Part shown: positions 34,388 to 43,548 of the stretch, piece by piece
Layout of the letters: each line of letters starts with the position of its first letter
Position numbering within the stretch: position 1 is the stretch's first letter
Assembly (NCBI RefSeq): GCF_000006985.1
Contig: NC_002932.3
Span: forward strand, 1,771,292 to 1,835,291
Origin: Chlorobaculum tepidum TLS
Lineage (GTDB): Bacteria; Bacteroidota; Chlorobiia; Chlorobiales; Chlorobiaceae
Direction of reading: 5' to 3'
Length of the DNA: 64,000 bases
Position numbers and translations under genes: made by a program
Notes under the pieces: model-generated
Databases searched by the model: none
What the model saw: the letters and a program-made list of their open reading frames with translations, nothing else
What the model was told of the DNA's origin: nothing

Positions 34388-34483
34388 AAAAGGAAACCCT
34401 CAACCGGTGCGAACTTGTTGGGGGGGGGGTTGATTTTCATCTCCTGTACAGCGAACATTCTAACGCTAAAAATACTTATTTAT

Positions 34484-34600
34484 TATAACGGCTGAGGCTA
34501 AGTGCAGTAAGGGATTGCGGGCGATTTCCTGTCAAGTTACACGAAAAGTTTAAGCGGGCTACAAACCTTGATTTTACTACTGTTTCGGCTTATTATTTTT
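34484..34600. repeat. Inter-cassette repeat, copy 1
   Basis: Begins ataacggctgaggc and contains gggattgcgggcgatttcct, followed later by ctacaaacct. The same blocks (gggatt, gcgatttcct, acaaac) recur in the same order at 36671-36815. The 34388-34617 stretch holds no gene. Confidence 0.55.
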
Positions 34601-34617
34601 ATACATTGTCATGGGCT

Positions 34618-35454
34618 TTAATTCTTTGTCAAAACTAATAATGAAAATCCTCCTAATATTTTTGCTGCAATATCTTCATTTGCTTTAAACATTAATTTTC
34701 TTGGTAAAACTGCAATTTTTGATTTCAGTGTCTTTCTTGGTAAATCCAATGAACCTGCAGTATAAAAGAAATCTACAATATCATAACCAGAATCAACTAA
34801 TGTCGCAATTGCTGTTTCCTTCATAAAATAATGCAAATGACCAACAGAATTTCGTCCAGACATTAGTGTCACGTCACCACAAAACTGTCTCATCAAAAAT
34901 TACAAAAACTGATTAATCTCTTTATTTTTATAGGCTTATGAGCAGGCCCGCATCCTCTCTCCGCAAGTTTATCCGTCAATATAGCGGAGACGTGACATTA
35001 GTTTATTTCTCAATATCGCCTGAACCGAAATATCCAATGGAATATGAAATATTGTATTTTTCGCTTTGCTTTTGCTCAATTTCAAGAACCCCAAATAATC
35101 ATCAACATGTTCAAAAACATCAATCATTAGTAATAAATCGAACCTTGCACTTGTCTCCAAAAAATTTTCATGCTTAAATTCTAACCTTTCTTTTTCCCGT
35201 GTCTTAGCAAGCCTTATTGCATCACTCGAAATATCATATCCCGTAAAGCTTACATAATTTGGCATTGATAAATGCAACTGATTTAATATTTCACCGGCAC
35301 CACAGCCTATTTCTGCAATAGATTTTGGATTTATCGGATTGCTGTTTAACATCTTTAAAATTTGTTTTGCTTTCCAAGGCGAATCTTCAACATGCCAAGT
35401 TGGATTGTTTTTTAAATATTCGCCATTTTCTTCTGTGTAAATTTTTTCTGTCAT
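34618..35454 (-). pseudogene. SAM methyltransferase gene broken by a MITE-like insertion
   Basis: Two minus-strand pieces (35454-35002 and 34866-34618) encode one class I SAM-dependent methyltransferase resembling MetW or ubiquinone-type enzymes. The N-terminal piece has motif I AEIGCGAGEILNQL and LLMIDVFEHVDDYLGF. The C-terminal piece has RNSVGHLHYFMKETAIATL. Deleting 34867-35001 restores one continuous frame of 234 codons (233 aa) joining ...RNKLMSGRNSV.... The substrate is unknown. Base composition is strongly AT-rich, unlike the neighbouring hydrolase, so the gene was probably acquired before it was disrupted. Confidence 0.82.
34867..34997. mobile_element. 131-bp MITE-like element in the methyltransferase gene
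   Basis: Terminal inverted repeats TGTCACGTCACCAC (34867-34880) and TGTCACGTCTCCGC (complement of 34984-34997) match at 12 of 14 positions. It is flanked by TTAG direct repeats; the flanks share GACATTAG at 34859-34866 and 34994-35001, so the duplication could be read as 4 or 8 bp. No transposase is encoded. A hairpin (TCTCCGC / GCGGAGA, 34958-34990) lies near one end. The parent transposon family is not identified. Confidence 0.8.
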
Positions 35455-35488
35455 AGTTTTTGTTTTTTATTATTGCCCATAACGTTTT

Positions 35489-35600
35489 GCGGCTTGGCGA
35501 AGGTGGCGATTTTCACCACAAATGTTGATGCGGAGAACCAATGTTTGATTAACCACAAATGTGTCTGCGGAGCAATGAACCGCCACTTTTGCCAAACCGC
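35489..35600. repeat. Large imperfect palindrome between island genes
   Basis: Arms GCGGCTTGGCGAAGGTGGCG (35489-35508) and CGCCACTTTTGCCAAACCGC (35581-35600) pair at 17 of 20 positions. The interior has two direct copies of ccacaaatg...tgcggag. The outer flanks read cccataacg and tgttaccagc. This is the general look of inter-cassette recombination sites, but no integrase is present in the window. Confidence 0.6.
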
Positions 35601-35617
35601 TGTTACCAGCAGTATTT

Positions 35618-36661
35618 CTATTTGTCAATGTCAAAATATTTTTTAGTTGCAAAACCCGATTTTGGTTCTCCAGTTTCCTTGTCAATGTATGAAATTAGAA
35701 GGTGTTTGTGTCTTATTTCAATAACAGTAACTTGCTGTCCGAGTTTGACAAGACCAATTATTTTTGAATTTTTCTTGTCTGAGTACCTTAAATTAACATT
35801 AGTCCTTGCGGTTCTTGTCTTGTTAAGTTTGTTCAGTTCCGATTCAATTTTTGATGAAAATTCTTTACTTATTTTTTCAATTTCTCTTTTGGTTTCTATG
35901 ATAACTTCAGAATTGCTTTTATCTGTCGGTATAACAAAAGGATTATAGAATATTAAAAGAAAGCTAATTGTTGAAATTAATTCAAAGATAAACTGTCGAG
36001 CCTTATCTGTTTTGGTTTTCCCAAGTAGTCCCAGAAGTTCTGTAACAATTGACTGTCTTAAATTGTCAAGGTCTTGAACGGTAACTTGCGCTGTATTATT
36101 TAGTAATTCGTCCGCAATGTTTGCAATTGTTTCGTTCGCTTCTTCTGCAACTGATATGTCTTCCCAGTTACGAGTCAAGGCAATATTCTTCAAATAAGTT
36201 TTAGAAATGCCTTGCAAAGCAATATCTATAGTATTGAACTTATTTAAGTGAGATTGGCTTAATGTCTTTGCAATCTCTGTCAAGTTTTTTGAAAGTAATA
36301 GCTGACTTGTTGCAAACCCTGAAAGTCTGTCTGAGGCAATTTGATTTGTTTTTGCAAGTTCTGCAAGTGTGGAAGTCAATCCGAATAACGCTGAATGATT
36401 TTTCGGATATTGAATTGCAGCCAATTGTGCTTGAATACTATTTCCTAAAACTAATGATGTAGCGTTTAATGGCTTCATCTGTTGGGAAATTGTCCTAGCA
36501 ATATCTGTCAAACCACTTAGTCCCGAAAAATTGAACTGTGCTTTGTTTTGTTTTTCTATTGCCGCTGCTATTCCTTGTAGCGAATTCAGTCCGAATGCGC
36601 TTTGCATAGTCTGATTTTGCTTTTGAATTCCTTTGATTATGTCTTGTAGGTTTGTTGTCAT
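35618..36661 (-). CDS. Hypothetical membrane protein with C-terminal SH3-like domain
   Basis: 347 aa from ATG 36661 (MTTNLQDIIKGIQKQNQTMQ). The N-terminal 200 residues are a helical, Asn/Gln/Leu-rich region with irregular repeats. One membrane helix lies at about residues 224-244 (FIFELISTISFLLIFYNPF). It is followed by a charged helix and a bacterial SH3-like domain (NLRYSDKKNSKIIGLVKLGQ to the C-terminus). The layout suggests a membrane sensor or effector with a ligand-binding SH3b end. It is bounded on both sides by palindromes, so it looks like a separate cassette from the HerA-NurA operon. Confidence 0.7.
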   Translation of the reverse strand: MTTNLQDIIKGIQKQNQTMQSAFGLNSLQGIAAAIEKQNKAQFNFSGLSGLTDIARTISQQMKPLNATSLVLGNSIQAQLAAIQYPKNHSALFGLTSTLAELAKTNQIASDRLSGFATSQLLLSKNLTEIAKTLSQSHLNKFNTIDIALQGISKTYLKNIALTRNWEDISVAEEANETIANIADELLNNTAQVTVQDLDNLRQSIVTELLGLLGKTKTDKARQFIFELISTISFLLIFYNPFVIPTDKSNSEVIIETKREIEKISKEFSSKIESELNKLNKTRTARTNVNLRYSDKKNSKIIGLVKLGQQVTVIEIRHKHLLISYIDKETGEPKSGFATKKYFDIDK

Positions 36662-36670
36662 ACTAATATT

Positions 36671-36815
36671 GCTGGTAACGGTTGATGGTATGGTGTCGTG
36701 CGGGATTACGAGGCGATTTCCTTTCAGTTTACATAGACTTTTTTTACGAGCCACAAACGCTCGAAAACCACTGAAACCCGCATGCACTATACCATGTGCT
36801 GTGCGTTCGGTGTTC
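36671..36815. repeat. Inter-cassette repeat, copy 2
   Basis: Starts gctggtaacggttgatgg and contains gggattacgaggcgatttcct, then ccacaaacgctcg. Arms ggtatggtgtcgtgcggg and cccgcatgcactataccat pair imperfectly. It is homologous in block order to the 34484-34600 copy. The gap 36662-36930 has no gene. Confidence 0.6.
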
Positions 36816-36854
36816 TTGTTTTGTCTTGATTGTCTGCCAGTTGTGCGCAGGAAC

Positions 36855-36917
36855 AGACACACTCTTTGCCAAGTTTTGGCTTGTGGGTTGGCTTGTGCGA
36901 CTTGGCAATGTGTGTGG
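36855..36917. repeat. Palindrome downstream of the methyltransferase gene
   Basis: acacactctttgccaag (36857-36873) and cttggcaatgtgtgt (36901-36915) are near-perfect inverted arms. It lies between the DNA methyltransferase stop (36931) and the next cassette, so it may also serve as a terminator. Confidence 0.55.
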
Positions 36918-36930
36918 CTGTTGAGTTGGC

Positions 36931-38058
36931 TCATTTTCTCGACATTATTATATCAACTTCTCCTGGCTTCATTGTCTTGTCCCCGAAGAGTTTTGTTTGA
37001 GTTTTTGTGTCCTTTGTCAAAGGTTTTTCGACAATCTTAACTGAATGATTTGGGAAATGCCTTTTCAGTATTTCAAGTGTAGAGTTGAAAGTAAATTCTC
37101 TCTTGTCTGTCCGAACATAAACAGTGCTTTCTCTTTTCATCATTTTGGCACAAAGTCCAAAAACGTTGTCCAGTAAGTCATAATATTCTTGTTTATTTAC
37201 AAATCGCCCTTTATGCTTATCTTTTAGTGATTGAGGATTTTCTGAACCACCTAAAAGCCACAGTCGCAACCACTGGTCCGCGTGATAGTCAGTAATCGAG
37301 TAATAGGGTGGTGAAGTAAACAGCAAAGAAAATTTTATATCATTGTTTATTGCTCTTTCTGCAATGCTTATTAATTTATTTGAACTATCACCGAACACAA
37401 CGGCACTCTCAGAAACTTTTGGTTTACCTTTCTCGTAACGCCATTCGATTTTTTTGAGAATGAAATCGCAGGGGTTTATTTCAGGCGGTGTGGTCATATT
37501 GTTTTTCTTCCACCATTGCACAGAGTAATTCATCCCCATTGATTTAGTCATTCTCATTTGATTGGAAAGTCCTTCGCCAATTTTTGCGTGTAGGTAAATC
37601 AGAAGTATTGACATCAAAGTCGCATCAACTTTATTGTTTCTCCAATCTAAATGAGTTCGGGCGGCTAACAGGAATTTAAGAACTTCGTCACAGTAACAAA
37701 TGCGATAAAATTCGGGCATTTTTTGGATTGCTCGGTTATAATAGTTTCTCTTACTGTAAATTTCAAGTAGTCGGTCAATGACTTCTTCTTTTTCTGCTGG
37801 ATGCAGTTTTACAGTTCCATACAACCAACCAACAGGGTTAATTTCTAATCCTAAACTATTTCTTCCTAAAACGCCACCAGCATATATACTACTGCATCTA
37901 CCCGCAAAAGGGTCAATTATATAATCACCGTTCTTTGAGTATTTCTCAACTACATCAAATGCAAATTCTAAAGGAAACATTGCATAGTATGGTCCAAACC
38001 TTGCCCAACGTGCTTCGGCAGTTTCAAAACCTTTCAATATTTTTTCCTTTGCTATCAT
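36931..38058 (-). CDS. DNA methyltransferase (N4-C/N6-A type) of the HerA-NurA operon
   Basis: 375 aa. The SAM-binding motif DPFAGRCSS is at residues 49-57 and the catalytic motif TSPPYYSITDYHAD is at 248-261. About 190 residues separate them, probably including target recognition. The motif types are those of beta-class amino methyltransferases, but the order (I then IV) is like the alpha or gamma class. The start overlaps the NurA stop (ATGA), so it is translationally coupled to a nuclease. It would modify DNA, presumably marking the host genome. Confidence 0.82.
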   Translation of the reverse strand: MIAKEKILKGFETAEARWARFGPYYAMFPLEFAFDVVEKYSKNGDYIIDPFAGRCSSIYAGGVLGRNSLGLEINPVGWLYGTVKLHPAEKEEVIDRLLEIYSKRNYYNRAIQKMPEFYRICYCDEVLKFLLAARTHLDWRNNKVDATLMSILLIYLHAKIGEGLSNQMRMTKSMGMNYSVQWWKKNNMTTPPEINPCDFILKKIEWRYEKGKPKVSESAVVFGDSSNKLISIAERAINNDIKFSLLFTSPPYYSITDYHADQWLRLWLLGGSENPQSLKDKHKGRFVNKQEYYDLLDNVFGLCAKMMKRESTVYVRTDKREFTFNSTLEILKRHFPNHSVKIVEKPLTKDTKTQTKLFGDKTMKPGEVDIIMSRK

Positions 38059-39422
38059 TCTTTTGATTTCTCTCTTATTTCTCTTGCAATGTCTTCAAAA
38101 ATTCGCTTGCCTAAGTTCAAAGGAATTGCTGCTTCTGCGTGTGCTGAAACTAACGGAGAAACAGAATTCGGGTATCTGCTTGAAACAAGTAGGTCTAGCA
38201 AATTCATAACATCTGCTAATCTTGTAAATTGGTCAGGATTTGCTGTATTAAGATTTCTTTGATACTCGTTGAAACAAGCTACGACAGGAACAATTTTTTG
38301 ACCTGATGCCGCTTTGTAGAAAAGTTTTCTTCCAAAATAAGTGTCTTGACCGTAAGGTTTGATACTCTCAGAAAAAATGATATTTCGTTTTATGTAGCCG
38401 TCATTTAAGAGTAAGGCAGATTGTTTTGGAAATTTATCAGTTACGCCATCTTTGGTAGTGTCTATCTCAATGAAGTGATTGAAGAATGTTCCTGATTTTT
38501 CAATTCCAATGATTAAAAGGTCTTGACCATTTATTTTCCGTTGAAGGTCATTCAGCCGAGTTAATTCGTGACTTATAACTTTTGTTAACCAAGATGAAGT
38601 GCTAAATACGGCTAAAGGTCCATCCATTATAAAAGCAACTCTGCGAAGTGTTGCTAACCAACCTTTGCGTTCAAATGCTCTTAGAATGTGAACAAGCCAA
38701 AGTTTTTCAAGAGTGGACATTATTTGCCCAAACATTTCACCATTGCTCCCGCCTGGGTTCATAAGTTCGTGTAAACGCAAAGCATCAGTTGAGAAAAGCG
38801 GCTCGCCTGAATGAGGACAAGTATATTCCCCAAAGTCATAAGTCATTTCTTCTTCAACTCCCTCAATTGGGCTTCTTGGTAAATTTCTTTCTTGAAAATG
38901 TTCACGTTTTATTCTAAAAAGATGCTCGTAGGTATCAAGCAAACTTTCTCCATCTGAAAAAATGGTGTTGCTGCGTAACTCTTCAAATAAAGCTCTCCGT
39001 AAGGAAGACTTAGCATTTTTTTCTGTATCGAGAATTACATTACAACCGGGAAAAACGCTTTCAATGGTTGATGCTTTTTCGGTTTCACGAAATTTCTTTG
39101 GTTCAACAAATTCCTTTTTTTCTAACTCTCCAATTAATTTCAAGTCAATTAATACGGAAGCAATGGTAATGTAACCAAATTCAGCACCAGGAAATCCGTT
39201 TTCTGCTTTAGCAGCTAAATTGCTTCCATCAATTGCAAGAACTAAATCAGGTTGTAAGGTACTTTCGGTCAAATCAGATTTTTTGACTATTGAACCTTCA
39301 AAGTCTTCTGTTTCTTCTTCCTGTTGCCTTATTTTAAGTCGGTTTTGAAGTGATTTAACTTTTTCACTATCAAGTAACCGTCTTAAAGGCTCGTAACTGG
39401 CAAATTCTCCTTCAAAACTCAT
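38055..39422 (-). CDS. NurA-domain nuclease
   Basis: 455 aa. The NurA-type active site is suggested by VLAIDGSNLAAK (Asp65), FIMDGPLAVFSTSSWL (Asp267) and GIEKSGTFFNHF (about 306-317). The C-terminal NurA-like segment is SPLVSAHAEAAIPLNLGKRI. In archaea NurA is a 5'-3' exonuclease/endonuclease that works inside the HerA hexamer to resect DNA ends. Here it sits 11 bp after the HerA-like gene and overlaps the methyltransferase start by 4 bp. It is longer than archaeal NurA (about 340 aa), mainly in the 100-240 region. Confidence 0.83.
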   Translation of the reverse strand: MSFEGEFASYEPLRRLLDSEKVKSLQNRLKIRQQEEETEDFEGSIVKKSDLTESTLQPDLVLAIDGSNLAAKAENGFPGAEFGYITIASVLIDLKLIGELEKKEFVEPKKFRETEKASTIESVFPGCNVILDTEKNAKSSLRRALFEELRSNTIFSDGESLLDTYEHLFRIKREHFQERNLPRSPIEGVEEEMTYDFGEYTCPHSGEPLFSTDALRLHELMNPGGSNGEMFGQIMSTLEKLWLVHILRAFERKGWLATLRRVAFIMDGPLAVFSTSSWLTKVISHELTRLNDLQRKINGQDLLIIGIEKSGTFFNHFIEIDTTKDGVTDKFPKQSALLLNDGYIKRNIIFSESIKPYGQDTYFGRKLFYKAASGQKIVPVVACFNEYQRNLNTANPDQFTRLADVMNLLDLLVSSRYPNSVSPLVSAHAEAAIPLNLGKRIFEDIAREIREKSKE

Positions 39423-39433
39423 ATGATAGTGTG

Positions 39434-41539
39434 TTAAACTTCAAACCTGTCCACTTGAACTGGAATGACAAATAGGTTACTTAAAGTCTTTACTCTTAAA
39501 AACCCTTTATCTTGGGCTCGTCTTATGGATGGTTCAAAGTCTGCAAAGTCGTAATACTTGCAAAGTTCTTTTGTCTCATCGGTATTGTTCAAATGGCTAA
39601 TAAACCAATTGGCAGTGTTTTTAAGAATGTTCTTTTGAATGCTGCTTACTTCTTGCGTGGCGTAAACCATTCCGATGCGATACTTAGAACCTTCTTTTGC
39701 AGTCCTTACCCAAATGTCTGATAAATCTAAATCATTACCTGCAGGCAAAATATTGTGGGCTTCTTCAACATAAACTAAAATTTCAGGAATGTTTGTTTCG
39801 CCTTGAACAAATTTTCTTTGATTTTCTTTGAAAATCTTTGTCATTATTCTGGTCGCAGAAGATTTGTTGAGTTCGGGTTCTCCACTTGATTGGTCAATTA
39901 TTACCAATTTACCTTGAACAAGGTGGTTGTAAATATCTTCTGCATAATCACTTGTTGTGTCGGCACTATGTTGTTCTGCCGCTTTGCCGATTTTTCTAGT
40001 TCCGTTGGAATATTGAAAAATGCCAATAATTTTTTTCAAATCTTCATCAGCCCATCTGTCGCCTGAACCATTAGGACGACTTACATAAGCATTTTCAAAT
40101 GCGGTGTAATTACTACTGCTGTCTCGAATGAATTTATCTAATGCTTCAAAAGCGTTAGCAAGTTGACCCCAAGCAGGATTTGGGTTTGAGAATACTTGTG
40201 CTGCTGAAACATATTCAGGGGTTGGCGGATTATTATTTCTTCCCGTTTGAAGGGCGGTAATCAAGTCTTGATTAAATAGACCCCTTGTGCTTGCCCTTAA
40301 ACTTGGTGGAACTTGAAAACCTGCTCTGGCTAATACTGAACGATAGGCTAATAATCGTCTGTTATAACGTGTAGTTGCACTTCGGTCATTTGGGTCAGGT
40401 TCATCAAAGCTTACTTGGCAGAATTGTTTGATGTAATTAGTGCTATCTTCTGATAGGATGCTATCAATAATACTTTTTCCAATCTGCGTATTACTTGTTT
40501 CAAAGAAGTTTAAAAGCATTAAGGTTCTTTCAAGGTCATTTGGATGTCTTGTAATTCCATAGGTAATAACTTCGTTTGCCTTTACACCATTAGGCAAAAG
40601 TTGCCAAACATTTTTAAGAGCGGAATTATTGTCCTGAACATTTTCATTTGCATACTCACCATTTGGGTCAAAAATAATTTGCCCTATTCGTAGCGGTCTG
40701 TCATTAGGATTTTCATTTTTTCTTAATTCAAATACTGATTTGGCGATAATTTTAGTGGTGTTTGATTTACCCGTTCTTGTCATACCGAACAATGCAGATT
40801 TTTGAGATAGCAAGTCCGCAGGATATATATAAACTGGAACATCATCTACTTGCTGATATTTACGATTTGTTGAAGCATAGCGAACAAATCCAAGTTTCAC
40901 TCTCTCTGTGTTTCCGTATTTCTCTGTGTGAGCCTGAATACTTGTAGGGTCTGCGTAATTTACGATTTGTTCAAGTGCTTTTCCGTTTGGCTTATAAACT
41001 TTCAAGCCCCTGTTTGGGTAATAATTAGAAATATCGCTACCAAATTTCAGGTTAAGAGGGGCGTCACCATTTTGACCGTTTTCTTCAAGAAAGAATGTTC
41101 CAATAATTCGGCATTGAACACCAGCAAATCCAAGAATGTTTTTTGTTCGCAAGTCCATTGAACCTGCATCATCCCAATGTTTTTCAGTTTCTCCGCTTAT
41201 TCTTTGAGCCGTTTCAACTCTAATTCTTTCTGCTTCTTTGTCTTGTGGTAAAGCTGCTGCATCCATTACTCGTAAAAGAACAAATGAAGCATCTTCCTTT
41301 TTAAAGTCAATATCTGTTTTACTTGGGTCAACTCGTGTCGCAATTAGAAAACTTAAACTTGGTATTCCACCAACTTTCTCTCTGTAAAAGTCGTGAATGA
41401 TTACTCTTGCTGTCTCATAGTTGATAGAGTAAATGTCACCAACATACTGGTCTGCTTGAATAAGCTTTTGAAACCATTGTTGGCTTTCAACTTGTTTGTC
41501 GTTTTCTCGTCTTGAGTTAAGTCCCTGTTCTATACTCAT
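39434..41539 (-). CDS. HerA/FtsK-type DNA-translocating ATPase
   Basis: 701 aa. Walker [11 protein letters not shown] (252-261), IIFDPNGEY (288-296), Walker [13 protein letters not shown] (587-598), a [10 protein letters not shown] sensor segment (626-635) and a C-terminal [11 protein letters not shown] motif (649-659). This is the HerA-type DUF87 pattern. The first 250 residues form a beta-rich HAS-like domain plus a variable N-terminus. It would form a hexameric ring that moves double-stranded DNA. First gene of the HerA-NurA-methyltransferase operon; codon use is AT-rich like the rest of the island. Confidence 0.9.
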
Positions 41540-41579
41540 ATTGTCAATTTATTAGTTGTCAAATTTATTAATTTCTGTC

Positions 41580-41695
41580 GGTGCGTTGGCAAAAAAATGA
41601 CTCTTTTGGTTTTTTGAGTTTTGGCTCATGTGTAGGCAAAAACCAAATGTGCCATTTGCGTGTCGGCTGTCTTTTTTACACTGACGCACAACTTG
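41580..41695. repeat. Imperfect palindrome upstream of the HerA operon
   Basis: Outer arms gtgcgttggc (41580) and ctgacgcac (41685-41694) enclose T- and G-rich repeats (ttttggtttttt, gttttggctc). The sequence is similar in style to the other inter-cassette structures. The 41540-42243 gap also holds the hairpin at 41703-41761, the aroA terminator at 42102-42127 and one doubtful ORF. Confidence 0.45.
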
Positions 41696-41702
41696 CTTAT
41701 AT

Positions 41703-41761
41703 GCGCTACTCTATTGCGCCTTACATCCCATATCAGACCAATAAGCGCAACAAAGTAGCGC
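41703..41761. repeat. 17-bp stem hairpin at the island border
   Basis: GCGCTACTCTATTGCGC (41703-41719) and GCGCAACAAAGTAGCGC (41745-41761) pair at 15 of 17 positions around a 25-base loop. It follows attatgcgc-like sequence and lies at the right border of the AT-rich island. Confidence 0.65.
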
Positions 41762-42085
41762 GTTATTGCCCGGTGTTCTCTTGTCGTGTTTATTACAAAT
41801 CATCAAATGGGCTTTTAATTCTCTCCAAACTTTGTTGGCTCCATTCCCCCCATCCGCATCCGAGACAACCCAACGACCGCAACTCCGCCAAACGCCTGAC
41901 AGCAGCGGCTTTACACCTGCGAATTCGAGCAGCGCGTTCTTTATGGAAGTACTTGCGTGAGGCATTTGCTGTGGGAGAAAGGTGAAACTACCTTGTACTT
42001 CAGCCAACACATTCATTGAAAGTAAAAAATCTGTTCCGCCGCGCAAACAAATCAGGGAAACTTGCCACAGGATTTCCTTTTTCAT
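41711..42085 (-). CDS. Doubtful 124-aa ORF at the island border
   Basis: Frame from ATG 42085 (MKKEILWQVSLICLRGGTDF) to 41711, 124 aa. It has no recognised domain, and its last residues run into the 41703-41761 hairpin, which argues against a native C-terminus. It has no good ribosome binding site and sits 17 bp after the aroA terminator hairpin. It may be a decayed gene or chance frame. Listed only because the 700-bp gap has no better candidate. Confidence 0.25.
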   Translation of the reverse strand: MKKEILWQVSLICLRGGTDFLLSMNVLAEVQGSFTFLPQQMPHASTSIKNALLEFAGVKPLLSGVWRSCGRWVVSDADGGNGANKVWRELKAHLMICNKHDKRTPGNNALLCCAYWSDMGCKAQ

Positions 42086-42101
42086 CTCCCCCCAGAAACG
42101 C

Positions 42102-42127
42102 AAAAAACCGGGCGATGCCCGGCTTTT
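42102..42127 (-). terminator. Rho-independent terminator downstream of aroA
   Basis: Minus-strand hairpin ccgggc / gcccgg with a 3-base loop followed by six T, about 120 bp after the aroA stop. It marks the boundary between the backbone and the island. Confidence 0.7.
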
Positions 42128-42243
42128 GCAATGGTGTCGATTGTCGAAAGAATCGTAAAAGCATGATGCGGAGCCTCCAGCTCCATTGCCGAGCAGGCGC
42201 TCGGCGCTCCCAGGGAAAATTCCCGCCCCTACCCTTCTCCCCC

Positions 42244-43548
42244 CTACTGCCGCAGCGAGTCGATCAGGGCGAAGAAATTCGGGAACGACACGCCCGCCAC
42301 GTCGCGATCCGAGAGGCGCAGCGATGCGCCGGCGGCTTCGGCGGCGATGGTGAAGCTCATGGCGATGCGGTGGTCGTCGAAGCACTCGATCTCAACCTCT
42401 TCTGAAGCGACGGTTTTCCGTCCCTTCACCACAAAGCCATCGGCGTACTGCTCGCACTCGAAGCCGAGACGCTGAAGATTCACCACCAGCGCGTCGATGC
42501 GGTCGCTCTCCTTGGTGCGCAGCTCGGCGGCGTTGTGCAGCTCGAACTCGCCCGAGGCGAAGGCCGAGAGCACGGCAAGCATCGGCACCTCGTCGATCAC
42601 CCCAGCCACAACGCCGTGGTCGCTGATGCGCAGCGGCTTCAAGCCGGAGCAGCTCCGGACGACGATATCACCCACCGGCTCGCCGCCCTCCGAACGCACG
42701 TTCTCGATGCCGAGGCCCGCGCCCGCCTCCTGCAACACGTCGATGTAGGCCACGCGCGTCGGATTGAGGCAGACGTTGCGCAGCACGATCTCCGAGCGCT
42801 CGCCGAGCAGGCCGAGGGCGATCATGAAGCAGGCCGCCGAGGGATCGGCGGGTACCTTGAACGGTTTGGCGGCAATCGGCTTGCGCCCGTCGATGATGAT
42901 CTCGCGAACGCCGTCGGGCCGATCGATGGTTGCGAGGCCCAGCATCAGCTCGGTATGGTCGCGCGAACGGATCGGCTCGATGATTTTCGACTGGCCATCG
43001 GCGTGCAGCGCCGCAAAGGCCACGAGCGACTTCACCTGCGCCGAGGGCACCGGCAGACGGTACTCGATCGTCTTCAGCGCTTTGGTGCCGTGGATGACGA
43101 CCGGCGCGGTTCCGGCGTCGGAAAGCGAAATTTCGGCGCCCATCTGCCGCAGCGGATCGGCGACGCGCTTCATCGGGCGCTTCATCAGCGAAGCGTCACC
43201 CACCAGCTCGCTCCGGAAAGGCTGCGCGGCCATAATACCCGCCATCATGCGCATCGTACTGCCGGAGTTGTTGCACATCAGCGGCACGGAGGGCTCACGG
43301 AAACTCCAGAGGCCGTTCGACTCGATCACCACGCGCCGCTCGATCCGCCCGTCACCGGCGGAAAGCTCCTCCTGTCGAATGGAAATACCGGCATCGCGCA
43401 GCACCGACAGGGTTGACTGGTTATCGTATCCACCCGAAAAGTTGGAAATCTCGGTCGTGCCTTCGGCGAGCGCGCCGATAAGCGCGGCGCGATGCGAAAT
43501 CGATTTGTCCGGCGGAAGGGTCGTCACCTCGCCCTGAAAAGTGCTCAT
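42244..43548 (-). CDS. aroA: 3-phosphoshikimate 1-carboxyvinyltransferase
   Basis: 434-aa EPSP synthase of the shikimate pathway, which joins shikimate-3-phosphate and PEP. Signature segments are [20 protein letters not shown] (residues 11-30), [19 protein letters not shown] (about 90-108) with the family NSGTxxR-like motif, and [21 protein letters not shown] near 345 (KESDR). Complete, with normal length. Upstream is the rpsU gene and its terminator. Confidence 0.95.

Follow-up and report, generated by a model that had tools for sequence, protein, structure and literature searches.

The herA-nurA-methyltransferase locus

The chromosome of Chlorobaculum tepidum TLS carries three adjoining genes for a HerA-type translocase, a NurA-family nuclease and a DNA methyltransferase (MTase), which were analysed here as a candidate defence system. 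They lie in a window of 64,000 nucleotides (NC_002932.3, positions 1,771,292 to 1,835,291 of the forward strand), to which all coordinates below refer. The three genes, called the triplet in the following, are:

39434 to 41539, minus strand: herA, HerA/FtsK-type hexameric translocase ATPase, 701 aa; Pfam DUF87/HerA, 5e-12
38055 to 39422, minus strand: nurA, predicted NurA-family nuclease of a TdpB-like subfamily with an inserted Cys-rich region, 455 aa; Pfam NurA, 9e-33
36931 to 38058, minus strand: DNA N4-cytosine/N6-adenine MTase, 375 aa; Pfam N6_N4_Mtase, 1e-12

All three Pfam matches exceed the curated cut-offs. The gene order is herA, nurA, MTase, with a spacing of 11 bp between herA and nurA and an overlap of 4 bp (ATGA) between nurA and the MTase gene. 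An earlier note on this DNA, made from the letters alone, had described a tightly coupled operon of these three genes in an AT-rich island, and both statements are borne out: the open reading frames, the gap and the overlap are as it gave them, and the G+C content of the DNA cassette that holds the triplet is 37.4% vs 57.6% in the remaining window. Scans for promoters and terminators gave nothing above chance level and an Rfam search of the island gave no match.

Conservation and distribution of the triplet

GTDB genomes were scanned with the HerA alignment, because the NurA alignment is too divergent for a contig scan. This yielded 526 relatives, and the counts for close relatives given here cover the best 80 of them. 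The same triplet is present at all 73 loci that could be tested, and the remaining seven run into a contig edge. Thus the unit passed the search across genomes that the earlier note had proposed as a check. The hosts are isolates and metagenome-assembled genomes from many bacterial phyla and also archaea; isolates include Bacteroides fragilis Q1F2, Sediminibacterium roseum, Psychrobacter lutiphocae, Mucilaginibacter, Flavobacterium, Chryseobacterium, Calothrix elsteri and a Planctomycetales chromosome. The taxonomy of four metagenome loci on short contigs (L027, L028, L031, L034), which may be mis-binned, was set aside. The 4-bp overlap of nurA and the MTase gene is the commonest arrangement (39 loci), and L058 is the only locus noted in which the MTase gene comes first. 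Moreover, the distances of HerA, NurA and MTase correlate with each other (r 0.82-0.88 for 69 loci; best permutation 0.24). The association of the three genes is not due to chance.

The distribution of the triplet-type NurA is patchy. Within the phylum of the window it was detected in 10 of 296 sampled genomes and is absent in most congeners; in three other phyla the corresponding counts, seed genomes included, are 1/398, 3/244 and 5/247. As the NurA of the triplet is also the sole NurA-domain gene in the C. tepidum genome, this distribution argues against a housekeeping role in repair. No relative turned up when viral contigs were scanned with NurA and HerA, and E. coli genomes gave no match.

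At four loci from Flavobacterium, Chryseobacterium and an alphaproteobacterium (L064, L074, L076, L089) herA is immediately preceded by a gene of some 340 codons. It encodes a PIN_8-domain protein in both cases tested (L064, L089).

Kinship of HerA and NurA with TdpAB

TdpAB degrades unmodified DNA and spares phosphorothioated DNA, and belongs to a phosphorothioation-gated restriction system. The HerA of the triplet contains the Walker motif plus Walker B/EEAHN, and K258, E592 and E593 are invariant in the alignment. In a profile search of the PDB, TdpA was the first match (2.7e-36, 128 bits), whereas other HerA structures reached at most 75 bits. The AlphaFold model of NurA (predicted local distance difference test score 84.6) gave TdpB at rank 1 in Foldseek. 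Aligned to TdpB chain 8wfd_G it reaches a VIA Z of 18.9 over 305 residues with a root-mean-square deviation of 4.1, compared to 13.3 for the Sulfolobus protein, the best archaeal repair NurA, and 11.9 for the Deinococcus protein. Each of the candidate catalytic residues D65, D213, E239, D267 and H316 is shared by 57-59 of 59 sequences. Judged by the predicted structure, the nuclease is a member of a TdpB-like NurA subfamily and not an archaeal end-resection NurA. The parallel to archaeal end resection drawn in the earlier note therefore holds for the protein families but not for the subfamily.

The methyltransferase

The MTase has the motif order X-I-(middle region)-IV (DPFAG ... TSPPY), which is permuted relative to PF01555, and accordingly N6_N4_Mtase matches the protein in two permuted stretches. 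DPF.G and TSPPY are invariant in 59 of 59 sequences, so that the catalytic motifs are intact. The predicted structure shows the class I MTase fold; among DNA MTases E. coli Dam matches it best, and Foldseek/VIA indicated nothing beyond this generic fold. From the SPPY motif we presume that the product is N4-methylcytosine or N6-methyladenine. Members of the permuted family were also seen beside other candidate effectors, namely an AAA protein of about 1415 aa on rhizobial plasmids and ParA-SIR2 on a Salmonella plasmid; these loci (L122, L125, L127) are possible further MTase-effector systems.

Exchange of the modification enzyme in distant HerA-NurA pairs

More distant HerA-NurA pairs usually adjoin a DNA MTase of another family. 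A D12-class MTase is encoded immediately upstream of herA at four loci (L015, L016, L020, L138) and a non-permuted N6_N4 MTase at four others (L018, L019, L134, L135). The neighbour of the pair is another N6_N4-type or annotated DNA MTase in Deferribacter (L024), on a plasmid of a haloarchaeon (L021) and, in divergent orientation, at L139. A type I R-M operon (hsdR, hsdM and a likely hsdS) follows the pair at L017. Two temperate Vibrio phages (L025, L128; PQ189353, PQ189371) carry HerA-NurA next to the integrase gene, and a D12 MTase is encoded on the opposite strand. At L136 and L137, which belong to the same phylum as a Methanoperedens locus, the pair has genes for an EVE protein, a ResIII helicase and a SACS/NOV_C protein as neighbours, and a PF01555 MTase is encoded at a distance of a few kb. 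The modification enzyme is therefore exchangeable between clades while the pump-nuclease pair stays.

In Deferribacter pDF308 (L024) an IS200/IS605 element with TnpB splits herA while the MTase and NurA are intact, and HerA is split in one of the two Vibrio phages and intact in the other. Two genes for related products of 742/743 and 297 aa follow immediately after nurA at L018 and L019 (9.9-13.5 kb). A CAYC motif, read by eye, suggests that these may be HNH-type nucleases.

The triplet as an integron-like cassette

The three genes are contained in an integron-like cassette of 5 kb, which is followed by two further cassettes. The features are:

36680 to 41692, minus strand: integron-like cassette holding the three genes, 5,013 bp
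41686 to 41770, minus strand: attC-like (or attI-proximal) site upstream of herA, ending in G^TTGTGC at 41692; folding z -2.3; arm score 15 vs a shuffled maximum of 11.5
36674 to 36800, minus strand: attC-like site of the triplet cassette, ending in G^TTACC at 36679; folding z -2.8, equalled by 2 of 200 shuffles; arm score 14.5 vs 13
41595 to 41657, minus strand: hairpin upstream of herA, inside the cassette (inverted repeat I6); folding z -2.4; kept in the alignment of relatives
36852 to 36922, minus strand: hairpin immediately past the MTase stop codon (inverted repeat I1); 23-nt arms 87% complementary; kept in L012, L027, L028, L030 and L031
35618 to 36661, minus strand: gene of the second cassette, 347-aa protein; SH3_3 Pfam match weak and below the cut-off
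35475 to 35611, minus strand: attC-like site of the second cassette, ending in G^TTATGG at 35483; arm score 15 vs a shuffled maximum of 12.5; folding z -1.7
34618 to 35454, minus strand: third cassette, an S-adenosylmethionine-dependent methyltransferase pseudogene interrupted by stop codons
41841 to 42109, minus strand: remnant of an integron-integrase-like tyrosine recombinase gene

Homology to an unrelated contig (L028) defines the cassette boundaries: it begins at 41692, precisely on the G of G^TTGTGC, and extends to 36676 inside the downstream GTTA at 36679-36676. Homology of L012 likewise begins at 41692. Imperfect, attC-like inverted repeats that end in GTTRRRY were found at both cassette ends, with arm scores of 14.5-17 vs a shuffled maximum of 13 and partial matches to the core heptamer. 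Among 75 triplets, arm scores of at least 13 occur in 7 upstream and 9 downstream flanks, compared to none of 150 coding controls. The recombinase remnant has lost the body of the gene (junction 41949/41840) and its ends align to the intact-gene locus of G052; an intact copy of the gene is found at L120:8441-9589. The G052 recombinase scores 196 of 265 (TIGR02249) and 217 of 220 (NF040815), i.e., below the family cut-offs, with model segment 180-238 unmatched. An integron integrase above the cut-off was not found beside the array, where the window holds the remnant only; other members of the genus (G153, G296) have canonical IntI. Since the recombinase is below the integron-integrase cut-offs and the attC-like sites were called from arm scores and folding, "integron-like" is the safe wording. 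As to the genomic setting, the AT-rich island of the earlier note stands, and three features that it had not noted have to be added: the attC-like ends that make the unit a cassette, the degraded integrase gene next to it, and the two further cassettes.

What remains of the island (34.4-36.7 kb) is taken up by the second and third cassettes. An open reading frame starting from the ATG at 36934, which joins the gene of the second cassette to the MTase stop codon, was considered as a fourth gene of the operon and rejected: the initial ~90 codons fall in cassette-end DNA (hairpin and attC-like site) and its likely start is at 36661. The two hairpins at 41595-41657 and 36852-36922 are related, share AGCCAAAACT in the loop, bracket the triplet within the cassette and are kept in close relatives.

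The abhydrolase-aroA site

An abhydrolase gene and aroA flank the island (34400-42250). The gap between these two genes in congeners is either 88-378 bp (L117, L118, L119) or filled with 3-9 kb of varied low-GC cargo. The cargo comprises Gabija GajA/GajB (L114), ThsB-type TIR proteins (L113, L115) and the PADLOC candidates M30 (L112) and S46 (L111), and L120 carries a dcm-type MTase operon alongside the same triplet. Tyrosine recombinases close to integron integrases are encoded near aroA in G052, G169 and G153, and the G052 gene is transcribed toward the cassettes. The same orientation has been reported for the "reverse integrons" of Chlorobium phaeobacteroides (PMC6557892). The site is thus an integron-like chromosomal defence hotspot. 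When 60 flanking proteins of scattered loci were run through PADLOC, the matches listed comprise only PDC-M62 (two loci) and related ATPase matches. Enrichment in defence islands is therefore supported for the hotspot in Chlorobi only.

Proposed function and alternatives

An MTase that is obligate among close relatives yet exchangeable further out, a TdpAB-like pump-nuclease pair, the defence hotspot and prophage carriage together fit a methylation-gated restriction module. They support the proposal of the earlier note, a modification-gated, restriction-like system built on HerA-NurA. We consider it probable that the triplet is a Tdp-like, restriction-modification (R-M)-like defence module which uses DNA methylation as self mark. 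In such a module the MTase would methylate a DNA motif of the host. HerA hexamers and NurA dimers would form a translocating nuclease, load on DNA and degrade it. Host methylation would block loading, translocation or cutting, and unmethylated incoming DNA of a phage or plasmid would be destroyed. The module would be inherited and exchanged as a single integron-like cassette in the chromosomal hotspot. The three genes move together across many groups of bacteria and archaea, and they probably destroy foreign DNA without the chemical mark of the host cell. For the triplet itself we infer complex formation, nuclease activity, methylation gating and phage resistance.

Several observations weigh against this function. 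On three cyanobacterial plasmids (L022, L023, L026) the HerA-NurA pair has no adjacent MTase and the plasmids carry no PF01555 MTase. Classical type II R-M MTases contain a variable target-recognition domain, whereas MTase residues 121-210 between motifs I and IV differ little in conservation from the protein overall and are not hypervariable; members of the triplet family may therefore share one target. PADLOC has no model covering the triplet-type NurA. Furthermore, loss of the methylase beside tdtA-nurA in ICETh1 has only a minor effect on DNA transfer (PMC7767461). Finally, a pattern of breakage that spares the MTase (herA or nurA broken, never the MTase gene) was considered and rejected as not significant (~p 0.2), the sample being small given the gene lengths.

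A selfish addiction module, in which HerA-NurA would be the post-segregational killer and the MTase the antidote, would stabilise the cassette array like the toxin-antitoxin cassettes of large integrons. Its genetic logic is that of R-M systems, and both the cassette setting and the non-significant breakage pattern point in its direction. However, the site-mates are defence systems, the array is short and a prophage bears the same type of module, and we regard addiction as unlikely to be the explanation, although it is compatible with defence and the two are not exclusive.

We are somewhat more doubtful that the triplet serves DNA donation, with HerA exporting the DNA, NurA trimming it and the MTase as accessory. 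This is the role assigned to the tdtA operon of ICETh1, where NurA, TdtA (a HerA/FtsK ATPase), an N4/N6 methylase and the type IIG enzyme Tth111II share an operon and TdtA, NurA and the type IIG enzyme are required for donation (PMC5365140; PMC7767461). In contrast, neither a type IIG enzyme nor an integrase of the type found in integrative and conjugative elements is present in the island of the window or recurs with the triplet in relatives; HerA-NurA instead adjoins D12, N6_N4 or type I modification enzymes, and the loci occupy a defence hotspot and a phage genome.

That the genes form a DNA-repair pair for end resection with an MTase in the operon by chance is very improbable: archaeal and Deinococcus HerA-NurA is such a machine and Pfam assigns both genes to its families, but the pair is missing from most congeners and patchy in other phyla, every testable close relative has the MTase, NurA is closer to TdpB (Z 18.9) than to repair NurA (Z at most 13.3), and the genes form a low-GC accessory cassette.

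The triplet family is widespread and, as PADLOC is without a model for its NurA, is probably undercounted in defence surveys.

Comparison with known systems

A literature search that covered few subscription journals found no description of a herA-nurA-MTase triplet as a defence system, so that one may exist. The earlier note had known of no publication on the exact three-gene unit, and none was found here either. The closest published operon is tdtA-nurA-methylase of ICETh1 from Thermus thermophilus HB27, to which a DNA-transfer role has been given (PMC5365140). Compared at family level, it likewise is a single operon of a mobile element with genes for NurA, a HerA/FtsK ATPase and an N4/N6 methylase. 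Unlike the triplet, it has the order NurA-TdtA-methylase, contains the type IIG Tth111II and is assigned to DNA donation.

In the HerA-SIR2 and HerA-DUF4297 anti-phage complexes (e.g., the ATPase-nuclease dual-enzyme complex, PMC11291478) a HerA hexamer is also coupled to an effector. In the triplet this effector is a NurA nuclease and an MTase is linked; moreover, its HerA has a far better score with TdpA than with other HerA structures. With the archaeal and Deinococcus end-resection complex the triplet shares both protein families but differs in its separate NurA subfamily, accessory distribution and obligate MTase partner.

Defence genes as attC-bounded cassettes have been described for chromosomal and mobile integrons (Darracq 2025 and Kieffer 2025, as cited in PMC12409362). 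The triplet cassette differs from these in its size of 5 kb with three genes and in the nearby recombinase, which is below the canonical IntI cut-offs. It illustrates the movement of a system of several genes in the form of an integron-like cassette, and the Chlorobi hotspot, with defence genes as its other cargo, is a place to seek more.

The greatest likeness is to Tdp of Thermus (TdpAB plus TdpC; PDB 8wet, 8wfd): HerA is nearest to TdpA by sequence profile, NurA is nearest to TdpB by structure, and the third component modifies DNA. In difference to Tdp, the third gene encodes an N6_N4 DNA MTase in all testable relatives and not the phosphorothioation enzyme TdpC, and the NurA of the triplet is about 100 aa longer with the Cys-rich insertion and has 16% identity to TdpB in the structural alignment. 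Whether the TdpAB-type HerA-NurA is a general restriction engine, which has captured phosphorothioation as self mark in Tdp and at least three DNA MTase families elsewhere, we judge to be evenly balanced. If so, this would be a distinct kind of R-M: a translocating nuclease that has no site specificity of its own would be gated by methylation, and the three genes would spread together as one integron cassette. Archaeal-type HerA-NurA, the phosphorothioation-gated Tdp and ordinary DNA methylation would then come together in one framework, with a single pump-nuclease and interchangeable self marks.

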